Below, piece after piece: positions 39,185-53,721 of a DNA stretch of 64,000 nucleotides. Numbering within the stretch: position 1 is the first letter of the stretch; every line of letters begins with the position of its first letter. The notes beneath the pieces are model-generated. The model saw only the letters and a program-made list of their open reading frames with translations. It searched no databases and was not told the origin of the DNA. Both the position numbers and the translations under genes were made by a program. This DNA is from an uncultured Rhodospirillaceae bacterium (GTDB lineage: Bacteria; Pseudomonadota; Alphaproteobacteria; Dongiales; Dongiaceae), in contig CADEFF010000005.1 of the NCBI GenBank assembly GCA_902826565.1, positions 13,148 through 77,147 of the forward strand, in the 5' to 3' direction.

Positions 39185-40399
39185 TCAGTCCCAGATCACC
39201 GGCGTGGTGGTGATGAGCTCGATGCCCTTCTTGGTGACGATGTAGTTCTGCTCCCAGCCGGCCGAGCCGACGCCGTCGCGGGTCATGAAGGACTCCGCGG
39301 AGGCGACCATACCCTCCTCGAAGATCTCGTCCTCGCTGACGGCGCCTTCGCAGATCATCGGATGTTCCCACATCATGCCGTTGCCATGGCCGTTATAGGG
39401 CCATTGCTGGCTGGCGTGGTCGTAGCCGGCACCGACCTTCTTCTTGACCTTGTTCGCCGCGCGCGCGACCGCCAGCACCTTCACCCCATCCTTCACGGTG
39501 TCGAGCACCGCCTGGCAGATGGCGTAGGAATCCTCGAGCAGCGAGCGCTGCGCCGCGCTCGGCTTGCCGCCGCAGACGAGGCTGCGACCGGGGTCGATCC
39601 AGTAGCCCTGATGCACGGGGCCGTAGATCCAGGTGCGGACGAAGTCGCCCCGCTTCGGCGCGTAGTTCGGATAGCCCGGGATATTGTCCCGCTCGAAATA
39701 GATGCTTTCCTTGTCGTTGCCGAAATTGATCGGGGTGCGAAGCCAGGAGGCGCCGCGGAGCGTGAGCTCGTGCGCCGCGTCCGCCGCCGCTTCCGCGCCG
39801 GTCTTGCCGTGATAGAGCCCGTCGCAGAGACGGTAAAGCGCGCTCGAGACGATCTGGCCGGATTCCCGATACATGTCGAGCTCGCGCGGGCTCTTGATGC
39901 GGCGGCATTCGCGGATCAGGTCGTCGTCGAAGACATATTCGATCTTCGGAGTCATGGCCTGGAGCTGCTGGAAGTATTTCACCGGCAGGCAGTCCGAGCC
40001 GACGAAGGCCACGCGGCGATAGCCCCTCGCCTTCAGCGACTTGGCAGTCGTCGCCACGATGTCGTCGCTATAGACGTACTTGCCGCAATGGACCCAGCGC
40101 CGCTTGCCTTCCGGCATCTCGCCATGCAGCTCCGGCGCCTTGCCCGGCTCCATGATCACCGCGCAGAAGGCATGGGCATTCCACAAGGGGGAGTCGGGCT
40201 CCTGCCCGGAACGCTCGCTGAAGAACTGCGTCAGGTAGAGCGTCTCCATGGCGCGCTCGTAGTGACCGCCGGTTTTGCCGAAAACGACGGCGATGTCGTA
40301 TTTCTTCCGCTTCATGGCGGCGTAGGTCTTCTTCCAACGGGCCTCGTACTCGTCCTTCGGAAAATAGCCGTTGGGATAATTCCAACGCTGGATGGTCAT
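39185..40399 (-). CDS. M24 (creatinase/prolidase-fold) protein with an altered metal site
   Basis: 404 residues with an N-terminal creatinase-like domain and a pita-bread C-terminal domain. Where M24 metallopeptidases have GDLVxxDxG, this protein has GDFVRTWIYGPVHQGYWIDP: Trp257 stands for the first metal-binding Asp, while D269, H338 (GHGNG), E369 and E383 remain. Creatinase is a metal-independent M24 enzyme, so a non-peptidase reaction is likely. It is the last gene of the Rieske/ProVWX cluster on the minus strand. Ectoine hydrolase, DMSP lyase DddP and creatinase are all in this family; I cannot choose among them. Confidence 0.85.
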   Translation of the reverse strand: MTIQRWNYPNGYFPKDEYEARWKKTYAAMKRKKYDIAVVFGKTGGHYERAMETLYLTQFFSERSGQEPDSPLWNAHAFCAVIMEPGKAPELHGEMPEGKRRWVHCGKYVYSDDIVATTAKSLKARGYRRVAFVGSDCLPVKYFQQLQAMTPKIEYVFDDDLIRECRRIKSPRELDMYRESGQIVSSALYRLCDGLYHGKTGAEAAADAAHELTLRGASWLRTPINFGNDKESIYFERDNIPGYPNYAPKRGDFVRTWIYGPVHQGYWIDPGRSLVCGGKPSAAQRSLLEDSYAICQAVLDTVKDGVKVLAVARAANKVKKKVGAGYDHASQQWPYNGHGNGMMWEHPMICEGAVSEDEIFEEGMVASAESFMTRDGVGSAGWEQNYIVTKKGIELITTTPVIWD

Positions 40400-40604
40400 G
40401 GTCCGGTGTCCTCCCCTGTGGACATGTTGATGACCTTGCGGGCGCCGATATGGGAACCCCATGCGGCGGCGCGACCGTCATTCTCGATTCGCGCCCGCGC
40501 ATCCTGCCGTCAAGCCTGCGGCCGTTCAAGGCGAGGCGGGATATGCATCGGGCCGGCCATCGCGCACGGCGGCTTCAGGCCCATGCCGCCGCCCGGGAAA
40601 GCTC

Positions 40605-42044
40605 TCAGACCGTCTGAGTGTTGACCGTCTTCACCGAGAAGAACTCGTCGAGCCCTTCGCGGCCGCCTTCATAGCCATAGCCGCTCTCCTTCTTGCCACC
40701 CATGGGCACATCGGCGAAGGCCGGGGCCAGCACATTCACGCAGACCGTGCCCGCCTCAAGCTGCTCCACCACCCGGGAGGCGGTGGCGGTGGCGTTCGAG
40801 AACACATAGGCGGCGAGGCCGTATCGCGTGCCGTTGGCGCGCGCGATCACCTCGTCCGTATCGCTGAACTTCGCGAGCGGAGCGATCGGCCCGAAGATTT
40901 CCTCCTGCATCGGCGTGTCATCGTCCTTCAGGCCAGTGACGACGGTCGGTTGCCAGAAATAGCCCCGGTTGGCGGCCCGCTCGCCGCCATGGAGGATTTC
41001 GGCACCCGCTTCGCGGCTCTGCTGCATCACCTTTTCCATCGCGCCGATGCGTCGCGCGTTCGCCATCGGCCCCATGGTGGTGGCGGTGTCGGTGCCGTCG
41101 CCGAGCTTCACCTTCCTTGCGAGCCCGCACATTTCCTCCACAAAGCGGTCGTAAATCCGTTCATGCAGGTAGAAGCGGTTCGGCGCGATGCAGACCTGCC
41201 CCGCATTGCGGAACTTGAAGGCCGCCGTCTGCTTTGCGACCTCGACGAGGTCGACGTCGTCGAACACGATAACCGGCGAATGGCCTCCGAGCTCGAGCGT
41301 GCATTTCTGCAAGTTGGCGCTCGCGAGACGCGCGATCTCCGCGCCGACCGGAACCGAGCCCGTGAAACTCACCTTGCGCACCTTCGGCGACGCGAGGATC
41401 GTCGAGGAGACGACGGCGGGCACACCGAAGACGAGGTTCACCACCCCGCGCGGCAAGCCGGCATCCTCCAGCGCCCGAACGATCGCCACGGCGCTGCCCG
41501 GCGTTTCCTCCGCCGCCTTCAGGATGACGGAACAGCCGGCTGCGAGCGCAGGCGCGAGCTTCCGCGCCGGCATGAAGGCCGGGAAGTTCCAGGGCGTGAG
41601 GGCGAGAACGATGCCGACCGGCTCCGGGATCGTACGCGGCCGAATGCCGGCACCGCGGATCGGGTAGATCCGGCCCTGGGCGCGCGTCGCCTCCGCCGCA
41701 TACCAGTCGAAGGTTTCCACCACGCGATCGACCTCGAGCCGCGCTTCACCGAGCGGCTTGCCCTGCTCCAGCGTGATGGTGATCGCGATCGCTTCGCGCC
41801 GATCCGCCATCAGCCGCGCCGCCTGCCTCAGGATGTTGGCGCGGTCCGCGGCGCTGGTGGCGCGCCAGACTCGAAAGCCCCGCTCCGCCGAGTCGATCGC
41901 CGCCTCGAGATCCGTCTCGGTCGCATGCGGAAGCCAGGCGATCTCGCGCTCGGTTGCCGGGTTGAGGACGGCCTCGCCGCTCCCGCTCTCCTTTTTCCAC
42001 GCGCCGTCGATCAGCAGCCCAAGGGTCGGATAGCCGTTTTGCAT
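40605..42044 (-). CDS. NAD(P)-dependent aldehyde dehydrogenase (succinate-semialdehyde type)
   Basis: 479 residues. Start YPTLGLLIDGAWKKESGSGE is usual for GabD-like enzymes; PWNFPAFMPARKLAPALAAG, FTGSVPVGAEIARLA, the general base in LELGGHSPVIVFDDVDL and the catalytic Cys in NAGQVCIAPNRFY are all present, as is the C-terminal PMGGKKESGYGYEGGREGLD. It should oxidise a semialdehyde such as succinic or malic semialdehyde, a plausible end step for breakdown of a C4 betaine. Same strand as the ProVXW genes, 38 bases after ProV. Confidence 0.88.
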   Translation of the reverse strand: MQNGYPTLGLLIDGAWKKESGSGEAVLNPATEREIAWLPHATETDLEAAIDSAERGFRVWRATSAADRANILRQAARLMADRREAIAITITLEQGKPLGEARLEVDRVVETFDWYAAEATRAQGRIYPIRGAGIRPRTIPEPVGIVLALTPWNFPAFMPARKLAPALAAGCSVILKAAEETPGSAVAIVRALEDAGLPRGVVNLVFGVPAVVSSTILASPKVRKVSFTGSVPVGAEIARLASANLQKCTLELGGHSPVIVFDDVDLVEVAKQTAAFKFRNAGQVCIAPNRFYLHERIYDRFVEEMCGLARKVKLGDGTDTATTMGPMANARRIGAMEKVMQQSREAGAEILHGGERAANRGYFWQPTVVTGLKDDDTPMQEEIFGPIAPLAKFSDTDEVIARANGTRYGLAAYVFSNATATASRVVEQLEAGTVCVNVLAPAFADVPMGGKKESGYGYEGGREGLDEFFSVKTVNTQTV

Positions 42045-42082: not shown

Positions 42083-43225
42083 CTAGCCGGCGGTCGAACG
42101 CAGCGCGAGCACGATATCGTCGCGCGACACCGTGCCGATCACGGCACCGGCGTCATCGGTCACTGCGATGGGTTCCGGCGTTTCCGCGAGAGCGTCGATC
42201 ACCTGCTGCAGAATGGTGTCCTGCGAAATCTGGCGAAGCGTCGCGCCGCCATGAGCGACGGCGATCGGACGCATGACATGCGCCGCCGTCAGGATCCGGA
42301 GCGGCGAGATCTCCTTCACGAAGTCCGCCACATAGGCGTTCGCCGGATGCAGCACCACCTCCTCCGGCGTGCCGACCTGGACGAAGGCACCGTCCTTCAT
42401 GATGGCGATGCGGTCGCCAAGGCGGACGGCCTCCTCGAGATCGTGCGTGATGAACAGCGTCGTCTTGCGCATCTGCTCCGAAAGCTTCGCGAACTCGGTC
42501 TGGAGCTGCCGCCGGATCAGCGGATCGAGGGCGCTGAAGGGCTCGTCCATCAACAGGATGTCGGGATCGATCGCCAGCGCACGGGCAAGCCCGACTCGCT
42601 GTTGCATGCCGCCCGAAAGTTCGTCCGCATAACGCTGCTGCCAGTCGATCAGTCCGACCATTTCGAGCTTCTCCCGCGCGACCGCATGGCGCTCGTCGCG
42701 GCCGAGCCCTCGGACCTCGAGTCCATAGGCCACGTTCTCGATGACCGTTTTGTGCGGCAGCAGCGCCACGTTCTGGAACACCATCCCGATCTGGTGCGAA
42801 CGGACATGGCGCAGCTCCGCGGCGTTGAGCCCCGCGAGATCCTTGCCGAACAGCCGCACATGGCCGGAAGTCGGCTGGATGAGCCGATTGACATGACGAA
42901 CGAGAGTCGACTTGCCGCTGCCGGAGAGACCCATGATGCAGAAGATCTCGCCGGTCCCGACGCTGAAGGTCACATCGGCGACGGCCGCGACGCAGCCATG
43001 CGTCCTGTAGGCTTCGCGGGGCGAGATCCGGCCGGCGGCGAGATCGGCCATCAGCGCCGGCGAGGGATCGCCATAGACCTTCCACAGCTTCTCGCATTCG
43101 ATCGGTCGCGTCTCCTGCGCGCCCGAGGGGGAGAGGCCGGCCGTCGGACGCGCCTGCCGCGCCGGATCCGCATTCGGCGCGCCGAGCGACCGAGACGGAC
43201 GTTTGATGTGACGGACGATCGACAT
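42083..43225 (-). CDS. proV: Glycine betaine/proline-type ABC transporter ATP-binding protein
   Basis: 380 residues. ABC domain with the ProV-specific insert (SPREAYRTHGCVAAVADVTF), Walker A GLSGSGKSTLVRHVNRL, signature LSGGMQQRVGLARAL, and DPDILLMDEPFSALDPLIRR. The C-terminal CBS module (VMRPIAVAHGGATLRQ ... AVTDDAGAVIGTVSRDDIVLAL) is the osmosensing part in some homologues. ATG 43225 has GGGGAG upstream. It works with the ProX-like binding protein and ProW-like permease in quaternary-ammonium uptake. Confidence 0.9.
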   Translation of the reverse strand: MSIVRHIKRPSRSLGAPNADPARQARPTAGLSPSGAQETRPIECEKLWKVYGDPSPALMADLAAGRISPREAYRTHGCVAAVADVTFSVGTGEIFCIMGLSGSGKSTLVRHVNRLIQPTSGHVRLFGKDLAGLNAAELRHVRSHQIGMVFQNVALLPHKTVIENVAYGLEVRGLGRDERHAVAREKLEMVGLIDWQQRYADELSGGMQQRVGLARALAIDPDILLMDEPFSALDPLIRRQLQTEFAKLSEQMRKTTLFITHDLEEAVRLGDRIAIMKDGAFVQVGTPEEVVLHPANAYVADFVKEISPLRILTAAHVMRPIAVAHGGATLRQISQDTILQQVIDALAETPEPIAVTDDAGAVIGTVSRDDIVLALRSTAG

Positions 43226-43259
43226 GCCGGCTCTCCCCAACGGGTTCAGCGAAGGATCC

Positions 43260-44303
43260 TCATTGCGCCTTCGCCGCCTCCGCGAGCCAGGCCGATACCT
43301 GCTCCTCATGCGCATCGACCCATTCCTGGGCGTGGCGGCGGACATCTTCGAAGGAATCCTCGCCTTCATGCGCCTTGAGGTTCTCGGCATTCACGTCCTC
43401 GACCGGGACGGTGACCAGCTCGAACCAGGCCCTGGCGGCGGGATTCTCGGCCAAGAACTCGTTGTTGGCCATCACCCGCATCACATTCACCGGATAGCCG
43501 ATATTGCGGCCGTCGGGCAGCTTGGTGTTGAGGTCGAGGTCCTGCTGCTCCTCCGGCAGGTCGGTCCTCGGCACTTCGAGCCACTCGACGTCCTTGCCGG
43601 GGATCAGCACCTGCGAGAGCCAGAGCGGCGTGTAGGTATAGTAGAGGACGCGCTCGCCCGCCTTAAAGCGGGTCACGGTGTCCGCCGCCATGGCGCCGAA
43701 CTGGCCTTGGCGATGGGTGACCGTCTTGCGAAGATCATAGGCGTCCATGTGGTGCTCGACCACGCGCTCGCAGCCCCAGCCAGGCGGGCAGCCGGCGAGG
43801 TCCGCCTTGCCGTCGCCGTCGGAATCGAAGAGCTTGGCGATCTCCGGATCGCGAAGCTGATCGATGTTGGTGATGTGGTACTCGTCGGCGGTCCGCTTGT
43901 CGATCAGGTAGCCCTGCATGCAGCCCTCGACCAGCGTGCCGACCTTGGTCACGGTGTCCGGACCGCCCGCCTGGGTGTAGAAGGCGGTCTGCAGCGGGTC
44001 CCAATGGGCGGCGATGAAGTCGAGGTCGCCCTGGCCGGTCGCCACATGCAGCGCCGGCACGTCCATCAGCTTCATCTCCTCGACCTCGTAGCCGAGGCGC
44101 TCGAGGCCGATGATCACGACCTCTGTCTGGAAGCGCTCCTCGAGCAGGCCCGTGTAACCCGGGCGAACGGTCTTGCCCTCGCCCGGAAGATCGGCCGACA
44201 GGCCGGAACTAGGCAGCGCCAGCAGGGCCGCCGCCATCGCCGACAGCGCCATCGCCGACAGCGCCGATCGACGCGAAGCAAGCACGCCATTCCTCGGTTT
44301 CAT
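43260..44303 (-). CDS. proX: Glycine betaine/proline-type substrate-binding protein
   Basis: 347 residues. Signal peptide (SALSAMALSAMAAALLALPS, cleavage near GLSADL), then an OpuAC-like binding domain: VIIGLERLGYEVEEMKLMDV, GDLDFIAAHWDPLQTAFY, GERVLYYTYTPLWLS and EWLEVPRTDLP. HW and YTYTPLW tryptophans probably line the aromatic box that holds a trimethylammonium group. The residue set is that of ProX-type, not polyamine-type, proteins. Secreted to the periplasm. Confidence 0.9.
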   Translation of the reverse strand: MKPRNGVLASRRSALSAMALSAMAAALLALPSSGLSADLPGEGKTVRPGYTGLLEERFQTEVVIIGLERLGYEVEEMKLMDVPALHVATGQGDLDFIAAHWDPLQTAFYTQAGGPDTVTKVGTLVEGCMQGYLIDKRTADEYHITNIDQLRDPEIAKLFDSDGDGKADLAGCPPGWGCERVVEHHMDAYDLRKTVTHRQGQFGAMAADTVTRFKAGERVLYYTYTPLWLSQVLIPGKDVEWLEVPRTDLPEEQQDLDLNTKLPDGRNIGYPVNVMRVMANNEFLAENPAARAWFELVTVPVEDVNAENLKAHEGEDSFEDVRRHAQEWVDAHEEQVSAWLAEAAKAQ

Positions 44304-44337: not shown

Positions 44338-45276
44338 TTATCGGGCGACGGCGGGTCGCGGCCGCGCCATGAGCGATCGCACGAAGCCGATGGGCCCGCG
44401 ATCGGTCATCCGGATGGAATGCCTCGCCTGCGCGCCGAGCGCCTGGGTGAGCCGGTCAAGGATCATGGCGAGCAGCACGATGCCGATCCCGCCGAGTGCG
44501 GCGAGGCCCATGTCGAGCCGACCGATGCCGCGCAGCACGAGCTGGCCCAGCCCTTCGACGGCGATCATCGAGGCATAGACCACCATCGCCAGCGCCATCA
44601 TGAGGGTCTGGTTGAGGCCCGCCATGATGCTTCGAACGGCGAGCGGCATCTGCACCTTGGTCAGCACCTGCCGGTGGCTGGAGCCGAAAGCATAGGCCGC
44701 TTCCACCGCGGTCGGCGGCACCCCGCGAATGCCGAGGCTGGTAAGGCGGATGATCGGCGGCAGCGCAAAGAACACGGTAACGAACACGCCCGGCACGTTT
44801 CCGATTCCCACCAGCATCACGATCGGCACGAGATAGACGAAGGCCGGCAGCGTCTGCAGCACGTCGAGGAACGGACGCAGTATTGTGTCGAACCGGTCGT
44901 TGCGGCCCGCCATGATGCCGATCGGCACGCCGATCAACGCGCAGACCGATACCGCCGTCAGAATGATGGCGAGCGTGACGAGCGTGTCCTGCCAGATCCC
45001 GATCAGGCCGATCGTAAACATCGCAACCGTCACGAAGATGGCGGTTCCGAAGCCCGCGATCTGCCAGGCGAACAGGAACAGCACGCCGAGGAAGATCGTC
45101 GGCGGCACCGACATCAGCAACGACGTCATGTGATCGAGGAAGAAGGCCACCGGCCAGCGGATCGCCTGGAAGAAGGGACGGAAGTTGCTCGCCGTCCAGT
45201 CGACCGCAATCTGGATCCATTGCTTCAGGGGAAGCGTGTAGTACTGGAACGGATCCAGCAGCATGTCGCTTTCCAT
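44338..45276 (-). CDS. proW: Glycine betaine/proline-type ABC permease
   Basis: 312 residues. A short N-terminal region with a hydrophilic loop precedes the permease. LPLKQWIQIAVDWTASNFRP, six or seven helices, and the loop VPPTAVEAAYAFGSSHRQVL with TKVQMPLAVRSIMAGLNQTL, the ProW signature contacting ProV. Operon order ProW-ProX-ProV differs from E. coli (ProV-ProW-ProX). It forms the channel with ProV and ProX. Confidence 0.9.
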   Translation of the reverse strand: MESDMLLDPFQYYTLPLKQWIQIAVDWTASNFRPFFQAIRWPVAFFLDHMTSLLMSVPPTIFLGVLFLFAWQIAGFGTAIFVTVAMFTIGLIGIWQDTLVTLAIILTAVSVCALIGVPIGIMAGRNDRFDTILRPFLDVLQTLPAFVYLVPIVMLVGIGNVPGVFVTVFFALPPIIRLTSLGIRGVPPTAVEAAYAFGSSHRQVLTKVQMPLAVRSIMAGLNQTLMMALAMVVYASMIAVEGLGQLVLRGIGRLDMGLAALGGIGIVLLAMILDRLTQALGAQARHSIRMTDRGPIGFVRSLMARPRPAVAR

Positions 45277-45309: not shown

Positions 45310-45684
45310 CTATTTCAGCGGCTTGTAGGCCGTGACCTCGACTTCGATCTTGCAGTCGAACATGAGATCGGCGCGCACCGTGGCGCGGGTCGGCGAGTTT
45401 TCGGCGAAGAACTCGCTATAGACCTTGTTGTAGCCGATGAAATCCCTCGTATCCTGGAGCCATACCGTCACCTTCACGACGTCGGCGAGCGTGCAGTCGA
45501 CCTCCCCAAGCGTGCGCTTGATGTTCTGCAGCACCTGCCGCGTTTCGGCCTCTATGCCGCCATGGATCAGGATGCCGTCCGGTCCGAGCGCGAGCTGGCC
45601 GGAAAGGAACACGAAGTCGCCGGCGCGTACCGCCTTCGAGTAGGCGTAGGGCGACTTGGAATCGGGATAAGTGATCTGCTTCAT
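45310..45684 (-). CDS. RidA-family (YjgF) protein
   Basis: 124 residues. SPYAYSKAVRAGDFVFLSGQ, LALGPDGILIHGGIEAETRQ, and the C-terminal TRATVRADLMFDCKIEVEVT are RidA landmarks; the active-site Arg stands in ATVRADL, corresponding to position 105 of E. coli RidA. It probably hydrolyses a reactive enamine or imine set free during catabolism, or is a deaminase-like accessory. Its position within the cluster suggests a nitrogen-containing intermediate. Confidence 0.87.
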   Translation of the reverse strand: MKQITYPDSKSPYAYSKAVRAGDFVFLSGQLALGPDGILIHGGIEAETRQVLQNIKRTLGEVDCTLADVVKVTVWLQDTRDFIGYNKVYSEFFAENSPTRATVRADLMFDCKIEVEVTAYKPLK

Positions 45685-45715: not shown

Positions 45716-46483
45716 TCAGAATCGCGAGCCGCTCGGGAGCGGCGTCTCTTCCTGCTCTTTCCGTATTTGTCGTTTTTCGGAACCGGACGGCTCCCGGTCC
45801 GTGCCGAACATGTTGGCGCGTACCGCGTCGATATGGAGCCGCATCAGCCGCTCGGCGGTGAGCGCGTCGCGTTGCGCGATCGCTTCGACCACGCCGCAAT
45901 GATGCTCCCAGTAACGCCGCGGCCCGTAGGAGGATAGGGCGAGCTTCTGCAGCTTGCCCCAGGCGGTCTGGGTGCGGACCGCATTGATCGCGTCGAAGAG
46001 GGCCAGCATCAGCGCGTTATGCGCGGCTTCCGCGATCAGGCGGTGGAGCGTGCCGTCCCATAGCTCGTAGGTCGATACGTCGACGGCGGCCTCGCTTCGC
46101 CGCAGCGCGCGCTGCATGTTCCGGATCTCGACCGGCGTTGCCCGGATCGCCGCCAGCCGCGCGATGATCGGCTCGAGATAGCCGCGGACCTCCATCAGCT
46201 CCGCCGGGCTCGTGCCGCCGCTGACCATGATGAGGTCGCGCTCGTTCCGGAGCGGCCGGTTGCCGACGAAGGTCCCTTGGCCGACATGGCGCCAGATGGC
46301 GCCCTCGGCCTCCATCAGCGCGAGCGCTTCGCGCAGCGCCGCGCGGCTGACCCCCAGCTCGACCGCGAGCTCGCGCTCCGCCGGCAGGCGGCTATTGAGC
46401 GGCTGATTGTTTCCGATGAGATAGGCACGAAGCTTCGCCAGCGCATCATCGCTTCTGGAGATCCGGCGGCCGGCGGACATCAT
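45716..46483 (-). CDS. FadR-type (GntR) transcriptional regulator
   Basis: 255 residues. Winged helix-turn-helix: NSRLPAERELAVELGVSRAA and LREALALMEAEGAIWRHVGQ. The C-terminal FCD domain is all-helical and metal-binding His/Asp positions are visible (DGTLHRLIAEAAHN, EHHCGVVEAIAQRD). It overlaps the hydratase gene by ATGA and so belongs to the cluster; it probably controls the Rieske/ProVWX genes in response to a small acid. Confidence 0.88.
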   Translation of the reverse strand: MMSAGRRISRSDDALAKLRAYLIGNNQPLNSRLPAERELAVELGVSRAALREALALMEAEGAIWRHVGQGTFVGNRPLRNERDLIMVSGGTSPAELMEVRGYLEPIIARLAAIRATPVEIRNMQRALRRSEAAVDVSTYELWDGTLHRLIAEAAHNALMLALFDAINAVRTQTAWGKLQKLALSSYGPRRYWEHHCGVVEAIAQRDALTAERLMRLHIDAVRANMFGTDREPSGSEKRQIRKEQEETPLPSGSRF

Positions 46484-47289
46484 GCTCTCGCTTTCTCGAA
46501 GGTAGCGAAGACGGGCTCGAAGGCGCGGAAGCGCGCGACGACCGCATCGCCGGGTTCGGCGTGGAAATTGCCCGTGCAGGTGCCGGTGCTGATGATCTGA
46601 CCCTTCCGCAGGAAATCGCCGCGCTTGATCCGGTCGTTCGCGAGCCAGAGCAGGGAGTTCAGCGGGTGGCCGAGCACGCGCCCGCCCGTGCCCTCCGCGA
46701 CGAGCCGGTCATTGACGAAGAGCTGCGTCGGCTCGGCGGCGAGATCGATCGCTTGCCAGTTCTCGACCGGGCTGCCGAACACCATCAAACCGTCCTTGGC
46801 GTTGTCGGCAATGAGCGACGCCACACCGACGCTCGCCCAATCCGCATAGCGTGTATCAGCGATCTCGACGGTCGGGATCGCCGCCGCCACCGCCGCAGCC
46901 GCCGCCTCGCGCCCGATTTCGCCGGGTCCCGTCAGGTCGCGGCCGAGGCGCAGCGCGAACTCGAGCTGCAGCGAGCGCAGGAAGTTTTCCTGAGGCGCGA
47001 TCCTGGCGCCGTTCGGCCGGACCTGGTCCGCGAGTATCCGGCCGGCAAAAGGCTCGGTCGCGCCGACGCGCTCCTGGGCCGTGCGTCCCGTGCTGCCGAT
47101 CTTCCAGCCGAGAACCGGGGCCCCGACGAGCCGTATGAGCTCGTCCTGGATCGCATAGCCCTCGTCCACCGTCGCGGGATGCGCAGGAGCGACGAGCCCC
47201 GGAATGCGCCGGCCCTCGCGGCGGGCGGCGAGGAGCATGCCGGCGGCGGCCCGCCGGTCCAGCGATTCGGTCACACTGGATGGCTGCAT
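46480..47289 (-). CDS. 2-keto-4-pentenoate hydratase family (FAH fold)
   Basis: 269 residues of the MhpD/HpcG/XylJ family. RRIPGLVAPAHPATVDEGYA, VLGWKIGSTGRTAQERVGA, the metal-binding motif region ALRLGRDLTGPG, PTVEIADTRYADW and IISTGTCTG. Members add water to 2-hydroxypenta-2,4-dienoate or decarboxylate 4-oxalocrotonate. In the cluster it could process a ring-opening product of the Rieske reaction. ATG 47289 overlaps the end of the Rieske gene by 19 bases. Confidence 0.85.
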   Translation of the reverse strand: MQPSSVTESLDRRAAAGMLLAARREGRRIPGLVAPAHPATVDEGYAIQDELIRLVGAPVLGWKIGSTGRTAQERVGATEPFAGRILADQVRPNGARIAPQENFLRSLQLEFALRLGRDLTGPGEIGREAAAAAVAAAIPTVEIADTRYADWASVGVASLIADNAKDGLMVFGSPVENWQAIDLAAEPTQLFVNDRLVAEGTGGRVLGHPLNSLLWLANDRIKRGDFLRKGQIISTGTCTGNFHAEPGDAVVARFRAFEPVFATFEKARA

Positions 47290-48494
47290 GCGCGGAGATC
47301 GCCCGGCAGGGCGGCCTCGTCGGGGTCGAGGGGAAGCGCGTTCGTCGATTCCATCATCTTGCTCACCCACCAGGCGGCCATTTGCGGTATGAGCGGCTCG
47401 AGATGCGAGAGGCGCCCAGGCTGCGCGAAAGGCGATTTCAGGCCGAGAAGCTGCTGCTCGGTGATGTCGTTGTCCTCGGAGACGGCGATCTTCCAGCGCT
47501 TGAAGTAGTAGGCGGCGCGCTCTGCGAAATCGGCCTCCGCCATGGATTCGCGCGGGAAGCAGCCGCCGAGCGTGACCCTGGTGCGGTGCGGACCCTGGGG
47601 GCTGAGCTCGACGTACCAGACGCAGTCGACGGTGAGCGCGATCAGGGTCGAGGGAAAAAGACAGACGAAGTTGGTGCCTTCGGCGGCGTGGCCGTAGAGG
47701 CCGGGGATGCGGGGGAGGGCGTGCCGAACGTCCTCGTTCAGCAGGGCGCGCGTGCCGGCATGCCGTTCGCGCATTACGAGCCAGTTGCCGCGCGTCTCGG
47801 GGCTGAAATGCTCGTAGCCGCCTTCGAGCTTGTTCAGCGTGGTCGAGTGGACCATGGGCACATGGAAGTCCTCCACCGAGTTTTCGATATGGTTCTTCCA
47901 GTTGCAGGCGACGTCGAACTCGACGCGATCGGCCAGCACCAGGTTCTCGCAGCGATAGGCGGCAAGCTGCTCGGGCATGTCGCCGAGATGCGCATCGACC
48001 GAGCCTGCCTCCTCGCCGAGCCGCACGAAGATGAAACCGCAGCGGCACTGGGTTTCGAATTCGATGAGCCCGTACTCTTCGGCGTCGAATTCCTGGGTCT
48101 GGTCCATGCCGACGGCGCCACGCAGCCTGCCGTCGAGGTCGTAGTTCCAGAAGTGATAGGGACAGCGGAAGCCACGGCAGTTCCCCGCCCCCTTCGCCAC
48201 CCGGGTACCGCGATGCCGGCAACTATTCGCGAAAGTCTTCACCTGCCCCCCGCGGTTGCGGACGAAGAGCAGCGGAACGCCGAGAAAGGTTTCGCTGAAA
48301 AAATCGCCCGGATTGGGAATCCGGCTTTCGTGACCGAAGAAATTCCAGGTCCGGGCGAACAGATGCTTTAGCTCGGCGTCGTAGAAGGCCTGCGACGTAT
48401 AGGCGGCGGGCGGTAGTGTTTCTGCCTGGAGCAGCGGCTTGAACACATTGGCGAAACGAGCGCCGTTCCCGTCACGCCTGTTGTCTCGCAGCAT
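47271..48494 (-). CDS. Rieske [2Fe-2S] oxygenase alpha subunit
   Basis: 407 residues. Rieske cluster ligands C92, H94 (CRHRGTRV), C111 and H114 (CPYHFW). Catalytic domain NWKNHIENSVEDFHVPMVHS gives mononuclear iron ligands H211 and H216. Between the two centres most Rieske oxygenases use Asp three residues before the first His; here it is Glu208 (E-D-F-H), as in carnitine monooxygenase CntA and related quaternary-ammonium enzymes. No reductase or ferredoxin gene is nearby. With ProVXW adjacent, an N-methylated betaine is the likely substrate class; the exact compound is unknown. Confidence 0.88.
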   Translation of the reverse strand: MLRDNRRDGNGARFANVFKPLLQAETLPPAAYTSQAFYDAELKHLFARTWNFFGHESRIPNPGDFFSETFLGVPLLFVRNRGGQVKTFANSCRHRGTRVAKGAGNCRGFRCPYHFWNYDLDGRLRGAVGMDQTQEFDAEEYGLIEFETQCRCGFIFVRLGEEAGSVDAHLGDMPEQLAAYRCENLVLADRVEFDVACNWKNHIENSVEDFHVPMVHSTTLNKLEGGYEHFSPETRGNWLVMRERHAGTRALLNEDVRHALPRIPGLYGHAAEGTNFVCLFPSTLIALTVDCVWYVELSPQGPHRTRVTLGGCFPRESMAEADFAERAAYYFKRWKIAVSEDNDITEQQLLGLKSPFAQPGRLSHLEPLIPQMAAWWVSKMMESTNALPLDPDEAALPGDLRACSHPV

Positions 48495-50581: not shown

Positions 50582-51391
50582 TCAGTCGTCGAGCGCTGCG
50601 GCGGCGAGCGCGGCCACCTGAAGATCGACCACGGGATCCTCGCCGTCGCCGATGATCCAGGCTGCCGACAGGCCGGTCCAAGCGAGGATCCACTGCAATA
50701 GCCGAACGCGATCCTGGCCGGATCGCGCGATCACGATCTCCAGCCGTCGCCGGAAGCGCTCCGGCCGCGTGGCGACCGGCCGCGACGGATCCTCCATGTC
50801 CGGATTGCAGAAGAGGTTCGCATAGTCGAACCCGCGCTCGCCCCAAAGGCGCTTCGGGTCGATCGCGAGCCAGCCGCGTTCCTCGAAATCGAGGACATTG
50901 TCGTGATGGATGTCGCCATGGAGCACGCCCGTCTCCTGCGGGGTCGAGAGCAGCAGCCGTGCCGTCTCCCCTGCCCGACCCAACAGACCGCCCTCTGCGT
51001 TCGCGACCGGCTCGAGCGCCGCGAACCAGACCGGCAAAGGCACGAGTTTCGGCAGCGGCTTCGCGCGCGGCGCGTGGAGCGCCGCGATGGCGTCGCAGAG
51101 AATGATCGTCGCCTCGTCGTCGCGACCTTCGCGCGCATAGGCGGAAAGCGACCGCCTGCCGAGGGCGCGTTCGAGCAGGATCGCCGCCCCATCCTGTTCC
51201 AGCAGGCGGACGGCGCCCTCGCCTTCCCACCAACGCAGCAACAGGCCGCCGAAGCCCTCCTCCGCCTCTGTCGCGATCTTCAGCATCGCCGCCCGGCCCT
51301 GCCGCCGCACCGGCAGGAGGCGCGCCCGCGGCGTCGCCACGGGATCGCCGTCAGGCACGAGATTCCACAGCGAGAGATAGCGATCGAACAT
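50582..51391 (-). CDS. APH(6)/hydroxyurea-type phosphotransferase
   Basis: 269 residues of the aminoglycoside phosphotransferase fold, StrB/SpcN-like branch. Kinase catalytic loop VLHGDIHHDNVLDFEE and metal-binding AIDPKRLWGERGFDYANLFC are clear; the N-lobe Lys in AAMLKIATEAEEGFGG would bind ATP. The true substrate may be an endogenous metabolite; many such chromosomal genes give no resistance. ATG 51391 was chosen because family-like sequence begins there; the frame opens from 51589. Divergent from the LLM gene with its operator between them. Confidence 0.85.
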   Translation of the reverse strand: MFDRYLSLWNLVPDGDPVATPRARLLPVRRQGRAAMLKIATEAEEGFGGLLLRWWEGEGAVRLLEQDGAAILLERALGRRSLSAYAREGRDDEATIILCDAIAALHAPRAKPLPKLVPLPVWFAALEPVANAEGGLLGRAGETARLLLSTPQETGVLHGDIHHDNVLDFEERGWLAIDPKRLWGERGFDYANLFCNPDMEDPSRPVATRPERFRRRLEIVIARSGQDRVRLLQWILAWTGLSAAWIIGDGEDPVVDLQVAALAAAALDD

Positions 51392-51525
51392 GAAAGGGGC
51401 TTTGCGACACGACCCAAGACGAGAAATTCGGGAGCGACACCGTGCCCTCAGACGGGAGAGTGCCGCGGTCGATCCGGCCCCGGACGATGCGCGGCGCGCT
51501 TTACCTGTCCGCCGGGATATGGTAA

Positions 51526-51541
51526 TTGTATGATTGTATGA
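51526..51541 (+). promoter_or_regulatory. Putative operator: direct repeat TTGTATGA x2 before the LLM gene
   Basis: TTGTATGA is repeated exactly in tandem, TTGTATGATTGTATGA, ending 49 bases ahead of the LLM gene ATG. The same 16 bases, in the same orientation relative to the gene, precede the transporter binding-protein gene at 58913-58928. Such an exact match of an AT-rich 16-mer in this GC-rich DNA is unlikely by chance. Confidence 0.7.
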
Positions 51542-51590
51542 CAGAACAGGTTTCCGACGGCGCGTCTCTCGGTCCGCGAAGGCATGCACA

Positions 51591-52784
51591 ATGAAGATCG
51601 GCTATTTCTGCAATCCCAGCAATCCGGGGCATCAGCGCGACTATCGCAGCGTGATGAACGAGGTGCGCAACCTCTCGATCTTCTGCGACAGGGCTGGCTT
51701 CGACAGCATCTGGTACGCCGAGCATCATTTCAGCATCTGGGGCCGCGAGGTTCTGCCCAACCCGCTGATCATGGCAGCCGATATCGCGGCGCGCACGCAA
51801 CGCATCCGGATCGGCCTCGCGGCGGCGATCATCACCTTCTGGCATCCGCTGCGGCTCGCCGAAGACCTCGCGCTGCTTGACCAGCTCCTGGACGGTCGGC
51901 TCGAGATCGGCCTCGGGCGCGGCAATTACGGTATCGAAGGCACGAACCTCAATCCGAAGGCGGATCCGCGGAACCCCAAGCAGAACTTCGAGGTGTTCGC
52001 CGAGACGTTGCAGATCCTGAAGAAGGCTTTCACGGAGCGGCTCTTCAACCACCAGGGCACGCACTACACGGTGCCGACGCCCGGCTTCCAGTGGGACCGT
52101 GCGCATCCGGTCGACGACGCCGACTATATCGATGCGGCGACCAAGGAACTGAAATACATGTCGGTCTATCCGCGGCCGCTGCAGCAGCCCTACCCGCCGC
52201 TCTGGCAGGTGGTGGATTCGCCGCTCGCGATCGAATATGCGGCGCAGAACGACATGGGCATCATCATGTGGCGGCCGCCGGTGGAGACGCTGAAGGAGCG
52301 CTTCCGCCTCTATCAGGAAACGGCGGCCAAGGCGACCGGCAAGCCGGTGGCCTGGGGCGCCCGCACCAGCGTCGTGCGCGATACGTTCGTCGCGGACACC
52401 ATGGAGCAGGCGCGCGACATGGCCGAACGCCATGTGATGCGCTACCTCAACTGGAGCAACTGGCGCGGGCCCAAGATCTATCTGAAGCCGGGCGAGGTGC
52501 TGACGCCGGCGCAGGAGCAGCAGCAGGTGAAGGAGCTCACCTTCGAGTTCGTGAAGGAGCGCTCGCTGCTCTTCGGCACGCCGGACTATGTGGTCGACAA
52601 GATCGCCGAGCTGGAGGAGGAGCTCAGCATGGAGCAGCTCCTCGTCAACTCGACCTGGCTCGACATTCCGCACGATATCGCGATGCGCAGCATGCAGCTC
52701 TTCGCCGACAAGGTGCTGCCCCGCGTCCGGGGCGGCGCGCAGCCCGCGGCGATATCGCAGAAGATCGGCGCCGCCGCGCGGTAG
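51591..52784 (+). CDS. LLM-class flavin-dependent oxidoreductase
   Basis: 397 residues, luciferase-like TIM barrel. MKIGYFCNPSNPGHQRDYRS, GFDSIWYAEHHFSIWGREVL (the AEHHF FMN motif of bacterial-luciferase relatives), IRIGLAAAIITFWHPLRLAE, LDGRLEIGLGRGNYGIEG and LFGTPDYVVDKIAELEEELS. It uses FMNH2 and oxygen to attack a substrate. ATG 51591; the frame opens upstream over the operator without family sequence. It begins a run with an amidohydrolase and a GFA protein. The needed flavin reductase is not in view. Confidence 0.88.
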   Translation: MKIGYFCNPSNPGHQRDYRSVMNEVRNLSIFCDRAGFDSIWYAEHHFSIWGREVLPNPLIMAADIAARTQRIRIGLAAAIITFWHPLRLAEDLALLDQLLDGRLEIGLGRGNYGIEGTNLNPKADPRNPKQNFEVFAETLQILKKAFTERLFNHQGTHYTVPTPGFQWDRAHPVDDADYIDAATKELKYMSVYPRPLQQPYPPLWQVVDSPLAIEYAAQNDMGIIMWRPPVETLKERFRLYQETAAKATGKPVAWGARTSVVRDTFVADTMEQARDMAERHVMRYLNWSNWRGPKIYLKPGEVLTPAQEQQQVKELTFEFVKERSLLFGTPDYVVDKIAELEEELSMEQLLVNSTWLDIPHDIAMRSMQLFADKVLPRVRGGAQPAAISQKIGAAAR

Positions 52785-52851
52785 AATCCCCGGCGAGCGA
52801 CCGGAAGCGTCGCGCCACCGCCTTCGCGCGGGCCCGCAACGGAGGCAAAAC

Positions 52852-53721
52852 TTGGCTATGGCCGGCAATGCCCGCGCACTGATCGACTGGCACAGCAATC
52901 TGTGGCTGCCCGAGCATCTGGGGCCCGAGCAGCGCGCCGAGATGGGTAGCAAGACCGGACGCAGCGTCGATGCGAGCCCGGCTGCCCACAAGCGGCACGT
53001 GGCCGACATCTGCGAGAAGTTCGTGCTGGTCGCGATGCGGTGGAACCGGCTCGGCATCCATATCCCGAACGAGTTCGTCGCCGAGTATGCCGCCGACTAC
53101 AAGGGCCGCGCCGTGGGCTTCGCCTGCGTCGATCCGCACGACGCGAACGCCCCCACCGAGCTCGAGCATGCGGTGGTCAAGCTCGGACTGCGCGGCCTCA
53201 AGCTCTCGCCCGTCTATGCCGGGTTCGATCCCTGGTCGCCGGAAGCCTGGCGGCTCTACGAGGTCGCGAACGCCCTCAAGGTGCCGCTGCTCTGGCACCA
53301 GTCGGCCGCCTATGCGCAGCAATCGATGCTCGAGTACGGCAACCCGATCCTGGTCGACCGGATCGCGCGGGCGTTCCCGCATCTGCGCATGATCCTCGCC
53401 CATGTCGGCCAGCCCTGGACTGCCGAGACGGTCGTGCTGCTGCGCAAGCACAAGCAGATCTATGCCGATCTCTCGGCGCGCTACTATCGCAAATGGCAGT
53501 GCTACAACGCGCTGATGCTGGCGATCGACTATGGCGTGACGGGCCAGCTTCTGTTCGGCTCCGACTTCCCCATCCAGACGCCGAGCGCGGCACTCGACTC
53601 CTTCCGCGCCATCAACGACTGGGGAGAAGGCGTCACCATGCCGCGGATCCCGGACAGCCTCATCGACGACATCGTCTATAACCGTCCGCTCGAGCTGCTC
53701 TGGCCGGACGGGATCGGATGA
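52852..53721 (+). CDS. Amidohydrolase family 2 (TIM-barrel) with an altered metal motif
   Basis: 289 residues. NARALIDWHSNLWLPEHLGP: at the usual DxHxH metal motif the second His is Asn (H14-S-N16 from the TTG start). Later elements GLRGLKLSPVYAGFDPWSPE, PLLWHQSAAY, RMILAHVGQPWTAETVVLLR, and LFGSDFPIQTPSAALDSFRA with the catalytic-type Asp are normal. It would hydrolyse or decarboxylate a lactone or amide-like product of the LLM enzyme. Start: TTG 52852 sits 6 bases after GGAGG; ATG 52858 is the alternative. Overlaps the next gene by ATGA. Confidence 0.85.
   Translation: MAMAGNARALIDWHSNLWLPEHLGPEQRAEMGSKTGRSVDASPAAHKRHVADICEKFVLVAMRWNRLGIHIPNEFVAEYAADYKGRAVGFACVDPHDANAPTELEHAVVKLGLRGLKLSPVYAGFDPWSPEAWRLYEVANALKVPLLWHQSAAYAQQSMLEYGNPILVDRIARAFPHLRMILAHVGQPWTAETVVLLRKHKQIYADLSARYYRKWQCYNALMLAIDYGVTGQLLFGSDFPIQTPSAALDSFRAINDWGEGVTMPRIPDSLIDDIVYNRPLELLWPDGIG

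Follow-up and report, generated by a model that had tools for sequence, protein, structure and literature searches.

The residue that bridges the two metal centres of Rieske oxygenases has been described as 'aspartate or glutamate' (PMC9508527). In CntA, an inter-subunit electron path through E205 is supported by EPR, the E205 mutants made, including E205D, were reported as inactive, and Tyr203 is the pi-cation residue (PMC7948474). A pair of cysteines beside the iron belongs to both CntA and the stachydrine demethylase Stc2 (PMC10952381), and the iron ligands of Escherichia coli YeaW are His211, His216 and Asp325 (PMC9508527).

The window analysed here is the whole stretch of 64,000 nucleotides from a contig of an uncultured Rhodospirillaceae bacterium. 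On its minus strand it carries an intact open reading frame (47271..48494; ATG at 48494, stop codon at 47273-47271) for an alpha-type Rieske non-heme iron oxygenase of 407 aa. Pfam placed a Rieske domain (PF00355) at residues 50-135 with 58.3 bits against a cut-off of 20.3, and a ring-hydroxylating catalytic domain (PF00848) at residues 184-380 with 101.3 bits against 24.9. The CxH...CxxH pattern is present, and its residues C92-x-H94 and C111-xx-H114 are the predicted ligands of the Rieske cluster. Further landmarks are N198-W-K, E204-N205, E208, H211, H216 and E340-D341. H211, H216 and D341 are the predicted ligands of the mononuclear iron, the last because it does not vary across 12 aligned rows, YeaW among them; H211, H216 and E340 are equally constant there. 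With a Rieske domain, a His-His-Asp catalytic domain and an acidic bridge all present, the protein is, as judged from its sequence, a Rieske oxygenase. The segment E208-D-F-H211-V-P-M-V-H216 had been read correctly in the preliminary description, in letters and in numbering, though the strand (minus) was not given there; its codons lie at 47847..47873 (-), residue n beginning at 48494-3(n-1).

The preliminary description also proposed that Glu takes the bridging place three residues before the first iron-binding His, as established for CntA, and this is upheld by alignment. The window sequence NWKVIVDNYMECYH and CntA NWKNHIENSVEDFH were aligned by HMMER without a gap, pairing E208 with Glu205, D209 with Cys206, H211 with His208, V212 with Cys209 and S206 with Tyr203. 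The likeness is thus to a residue whose role rests on EPR and mutation (PMC7948474). E208, H211 and H216 likewise align with Glu208, His211 and His216 of E. coli YeaW, the shared number of the bridge being an accident. In an alignment of 84 Rieske oxygenases only two residues occur at -3, Glu (64 rows) and Asp (20); an acidic residue in every row is no chance feature. The neighbouring D209 is itself acidic, and the distance from bridge to His is not fixed across the family, since in spinach choline monooxygenase Asp283 stands four residues before His287, the iron ligands there being His287, His292 and Asp398 (PMC6157903). A bridge at D209 was named in the preliminary description as the finding that would speak against E208, but the alignment contradicts it: the -2 column contains 13 residue types in the same 84 rows, and the four nearest relatives, although acidic at -2 as well (Glu in three, Asp in one), all keep Glu at -3. 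A link through D209 is accordingly rejected on column conservation and is highly improbable. Because the -3 residue is always Glu or Asp, the -2 residue varies and the match to CntA is gapless, E208 is assigned by alignment as the bridge and D209 is not; the role of E208 in electron transfer is assigned by homology.

The 84 rows are a non-random set made up of the Rieske matches of the bacterium's own genome, the best-scoring P0001 matches of the genome searches that came with a locus, together with L021-L023 and six additions (an own-genome paralogue, two GbcA-like proteins, YeaW, NdoB and HcaE). Removal of identical cores had reduced 115 motif-bearing frames to 79, after which a 188-aa fragment lacking the iron motif was dropped. 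The preliminary description took Asp to be the bridge of most Rieske oxygenases and by implication Glu to be uncommon. Neither the rows examined nor the organism's own genome bears this out, and Glu as a rare bridge was rejected. PF00355 is matched 29 times in the 4.2 Mb draft genome, and an oxygenase-type iron motif is present in no fewer than 23 cases: 21 carry [N/D]WK, two more, both with Asp, were recognised by a looser pattern, and six have no such motif. Seventeen of the 21 have Glu and four Asp. Glu also stands at -3 in Stc2 (ENNRECYHC), in YeaW and in the two GbcA-like rows. The window protein is a further Rieske oxygenase of familiar type, and its glutamate bridge is ordinary for the family.

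On a tree of the 84 rows, a quick one with long branches meeting and deep forks unsure, at least six changes between Glu and Asp are required, where 200 shuffles gave 14 or more and averaged 18. Changes are few against the shuffles and yet number six, which indicates inheritance of the bridge state together with repeated switching. The window protein is one of five rows, each with Glu, that form a clade (SH-aLRT 99). Immediately ahead of the first iron His it has Phe210, and Tyr stands there in 80 of the 83 other rows. Two correlates of an Asp bridge were considered and are unsupported: a bulky partner at -5, an idea formed post hoc (six independent pairs, median sign-test p 1), and likewise a residue other than Tyr at -1. 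Separately, similar Rieske oxygenases, roughly 350-370 aa long, were observed on several contigs of the IMG/VR viral collection (L195-L206); they have Glu at -3 and WKI[A/L]VENTLEAYHVGHVH motifs.

A fold model built from a 14-row alignment reached a mean pLDDT of 70.8 and a pTM of 0.76; an earlier model from a 4-row alignment (pLDDT 35.3) was set aside. In the model a helix at residues 199-208 ends at E208, and residues 209-213 are under pLDDT 50. The best match of the modelled fold was stachydrine demethylase (4qur; Z 36.5, rmsd 2.6, 348 residues aligned), followed by CntA (6zgp_I; Z 36.1, rmsd 2.8, 339 aligned) and then by aromatic dioxygenases, with naphthalene dioxygenase at Z 34.2 (rmsd 2.9, 358 aligned); Foldseek ranked CntA at the top. 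The lead of the quaternary-ammonium oxygenases in this predicted fold is small, only about 2 Z over aromatic dioxygenases, excludes no family and comes from a model whose alignment contained a YeaW-like row (L194).

The protein has features in common with the well-studied quaternary-ammonium oxygenases and others that set it apart. It shares with CntA and YeaW the Rieske and catalytic domains, the Glu at -3 (E205; E208) and the His-His-Asp iron site, and its modelled fold matches that of CntA (Z 36.1); it differs in being only 24% identical to YeaW, in having Ser206 at the place of the pi-cation Tyr203, and in having neither the Cys pair nor a linked CntB-type reductase. Stc2 resembles it in the Glu at -3, in being the top fold match and in lacking an aromatic residue at the Tyr203 place, but has the Cys pair (ECYHC) where the window protein has D209 and V212, and identity over the structural alignment is about 24%. 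That Cys-x-x-Cys pair is reported as unique to some members of group V and is not required of all; the aromatic residue at the Tyr203 place, a feature of the CntA-like subgroup (group Va), is replaced by Ser206 in the gapless alignment. GbcA is represented by NF058607, the top NCBIfam match of the window protein; its 152.6 bits lie far under the equivalog cut-off of 670 and cover only residues 20-224. NdoB and other aromatic dioxygenases are alike in domain order and in fold (Z about 32-34), whereas NdoB and HcaE have an Asp bridge with one residue more between NWK and the first His. No family of small (beta) subunits was found among the 20 window proteins scanned with Pfam.

The Rieske gene heads a compact minus-strand operon. 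Directly downstream lies a gene for a 264-aa protein like 2-keto-4-pentenoate hydratase or 2-oxo-3-hexenedioate decarboxylase (MhpD/DmpH-like; 46480..47274), whose GTG start shares bases with the stop codon of the Rieske gene; a longer frame, from an in-frame ATG, is possible. It scored about 100 bits against each of four NCBIfam hydratase/decarboxylase models, all under cut-off, and 94.6 bits against PDB 2wqt. The next gene (45716..46483), with its start overlapping the hydratase stop (ATGA), encodes a GntR/FCD-type transcription regulator (Pfam FCD and GntR), and is followed by a RidA-family (enamine/imine deaminase-like) gene at 45310..45684 (PF01042, 102.7 bits; TIGR00004, 99.8 bits, slightly below the cut-off of 106.25). 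Three genes for a transport system come after these. The ProW-like ABC permease (44338..45276) scored 385 bits against NF008196, under its cut-off of 439. The ProX-like binding protein of glycine betaine/proline type (43260..44303) scored 430.9 bits against NF008334 (cut-off 215), and was aligned over its full length with E. coli ProX (PDB 1r9l, 335 bits) with its Trp residues matched; these we take to be the betaine box. The ProV-like ABC ATPase (42083..43390) reached 348 bits against TIGR01186 (cut-off 326.6), and, because the listed frame overlaps proX, translation probably starts at a point downstream of 43260. An aldehyde dehydrogenase gene (40605..42044; PF00171, 530 bits; PDB 5x5t, 429 bits) has 2-oxoglutarate semialdehyde and succinate semialdehyde dehydrogenases as its closest solved relatives. 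A gene for an M24-family metallopeptidase-like protein (39185..40462, minus strand; PF00557, 64.6 bits) is perhaps the last member, its membership unsure because at least 142 bases separate it from the aldehyde dehydrogenase gene.

Elsewhere in the window, at 50582-51589 (-), is a distant homologue of APH(6)-type aminoglycoside phosphotransferases (PF04655); since its 271 bits are under the equivalog cut-off of 325, resistance is not implied. A luciferase-like monooxygenase gene (51534-52784) followed by an amidohydrolase-2 family gene (52588-53721), both on the plus strand, may form a separate catabolic pair.

With ProX over its curated cut-off, and with ProW, ProV and an aldehyde dehydrogenase in the same operon, we propose that a quaternary ammonium compound is imported and oxidised, as the neighbours and the predicted fold together suggest. 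The pocket residues give betaine no support, CntA Tyr203 being replaced by Ser206 and the Cys pair of CntA and Stc2 by Asp209 and Val212. One joint explanation, to which we give about an even chance of being right, is a single-subunit oxygenase bridged by Glu208 within a betaine import and oxidation operon, its electron donor being encoded elsewhere. The enzyme would be of the alpha3 kind, with Glu208 carrying electrons that leave the Rieske cluster of a subunit across to its neighbour, where His211, His216 and Asp341 would hold the mononuclear iron. ProX-ProW-ProV would import the quaternary ammonium compound, and the Rieske enzyme would oxidise it, either by N-demethylation or by hydroxylation next to the nitrogen with C-N cleavage. 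Imine and enol intermediates may then fall to RidA and the hydratase, and the aldehyde dehydrogenase would yield the acid; the order of these steps is putative. The electron donor would be a reductase whose gene lies apart from the operon, the BenC-like one at G000:C56:3804-4835 being the most likely. As a tentative and rather doubtful further step, this may be an undescribed betaine route, one that would combine a Glu-bridged Rieske enzyme lacking the Cys pair and pi-cation aromatic of CntA with a ProU-type importer, a 2-oxo-acid hydratase, RidA, a semialdehyde dehydrogenase and a reductase borrowed from a paralogous system.

The hydratase also groups with meta-cleavage hydratases and decarboxylases, which would suit a substrate of another class, with enzyme and bridge unchanged. 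That substrate would be aromatic or N-heterocyclic, such as a methylated pyridine carboxylate, and its ring-cleavage product would go to the hydratase and the aldehyde dehydrogenase. RidA fits the imine intermediates of opened N-rings, and ProU-type transporters can carry ring betaines. Against this, no ring-cleavage dioxygenase family was found among the 20 window proteins scanned (the luciferase-like monooxygenase is on the opposite strand), the modelled fold is closest to the quaternary-ammonium oxygenases, and a ring betaine as substrate would be nearly a sub-case of the betaine explanation. An aromatic or heterocyclic substrate is a possible but unlikely alternative. A homarine-type pathway would be a sub-case of it; no paper on a homarine operon was found in a limited literature search.

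The operon gene set is not conserved among the loci examined. Twenty-eight loci around Rieske relatives (11 and 17) were surveyed, picked from the best-scoring places rather than covering every relative, and the hydratase, RidA, ProW and ProX were all without a counterpart at 1e-8, both in these and in L021-L023. Of the 28, 11 have an ABC ATPase belonging to the ProV cluster, and six have an aldehyde dehydrogenase that clusters with the operon's; the gene order aldehyde dehydrogenase, ATPase, Rieske was seen at L049, L050, L051 and L054. In searches of the class, where the best four to six candidates per genome were scored, the hydratase was matched in 14 of 385 genomes at 1e-50 and the M24 protein in five of 385 at 1e-90, the bacterium's own genome being included both times. 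No second copy of the operon gene set was found in the stretches around six hydratase and seven M24 matches. Partial combinations do occur: a 42% identical hydratase and a 39% identical Rieske protein lie about 7.7 kb apart within a 20-kb stretch (L177, G231:C11), an M24 protein and a 30% identical Rieske protein about 2.6 kb apart at L186, and an M24 protein within 10 kb of ProV- and ProW-like matches at L188 (own genome, C2).

Other relatives have as neighbours a 2-hydroxyacid dehydrogenase-type gene, an MttB-family methyltransferase gene, or glutamine synthetase-like and PhyH genes; neighbours so varied indicate that this Rieske family is functionally diverse. At L097, L099 and L100 (genomes of family f35) a Rieske relative directly adjoins an MttB-family methyltransferase gene (recognised by Pfam at L097, and by membership of the same clusters at the other two), bringing two kinds of methylamine-type chemistry into one gene cluster. 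It was also observed that a single 710-aa frame at L177:16086-18218 (G231:C11) combines a xylose isomerase-like TIM barrel (PF01261) with a Rieske oxygenase (PF00355/PF00848); it is a possible fusion enzyme and adjoins a MOFRL/DUF4147 gene. A protein cluster present in 11 of the 28 loci, mostly adjoining the Rieske gene, was considered as a reductase and rejected, both members that were scanned with Pfam being of D-2-hydroxyacid dehydrogenase type.

The remark of the preliminary description that no reductase gene is nearby, so that the donor is encoded elsewhere or shared, agrees with the wider survey. The window has no match at 1e-10 to five reductase queries, and the genome has 10 PF00111 (Fer2) matches, each of them on a contig other than the window's. 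The same five queries at 1e-10 found no reductase in 27 of the 28 relative loci, some of which are short (the shortest 4.2 kb), so that a reductase gene lying shortly beyond their ends could have escaped notice. The sole exception (L053) is contig C56 of the bacterium's own genome (G000). Two candidate donors were found by a search of this genome: a BenC-like Fer2-FAD-NAD reductase at G000:C56:3804-4835 (194 bits to the BenC model, under cut-off), about 3 kb from the nearest own-genome Rieske paralogue (43% identical), and a CntB/YeaX-type reductase at G000:C61:4981-5973, 44% identical to YeaX. Co-occurrence was scored in 384 other genomes of the class, with a Rieske relative called at 1e-85, thresholds set by the authors and p values that ignore kinship. 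On these terms the BenC-like reductase (1e-60) is present in 7 of 18 genomes with a Rieske relative and 44 of 366 without (p 0.005), three of the seven positive genomes belonging to one genus. For the C61 type (1e-60) the counts are 4 of 18 and 42 of 366 (p 0.25). Eight of the 18 have neither at 1e-60, and these eight include the genomes of three of the four closest Rieske relatives on the tree (G129, G320 and G395).

The donor might instead be the CntB/YeaX-type reductase, common to several oxygenases. Besides its likeness to YeaX, its contig has no PF00355 match, and pairing can be loose, as YeaX is reported to drive CntA fully in vitro (PMC9508527). It shows no clear co-occurrence with the Rieske relative, however, and it is the C56 reductase, not this one, that lies near the closest own-genome paralogue. 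We see the C61 enzyme as a real candidate whose chance falls short of even. The BenC-like C56 reductase is the leading candidate donor, a pairing that is only a suggestion because kinship was ignored, the thresholds were author-set and eight of the 18 genomes have neither enzyme.

As a finding in itself the bridging residue matters little, aspartate or glutamate in that place being already established, and the putative betaine-import operon is of more interest. It offers a testable guess at the substrate class of an oxygenase otherwise given a family name only. With at least 23 oxygenase-type proteins and two recognised candidate donors, a count that leaves aside other Fer2 proteins and HcaD-type reductases, the pairing of oxygenases with reductases becomes a question within this one genome. 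For the family, since the bridge has switched repeatedly in nature although CntA E205D is inactive, natural Glu/Asp pairs could show what fixes the bridging residue and what else must change with it.
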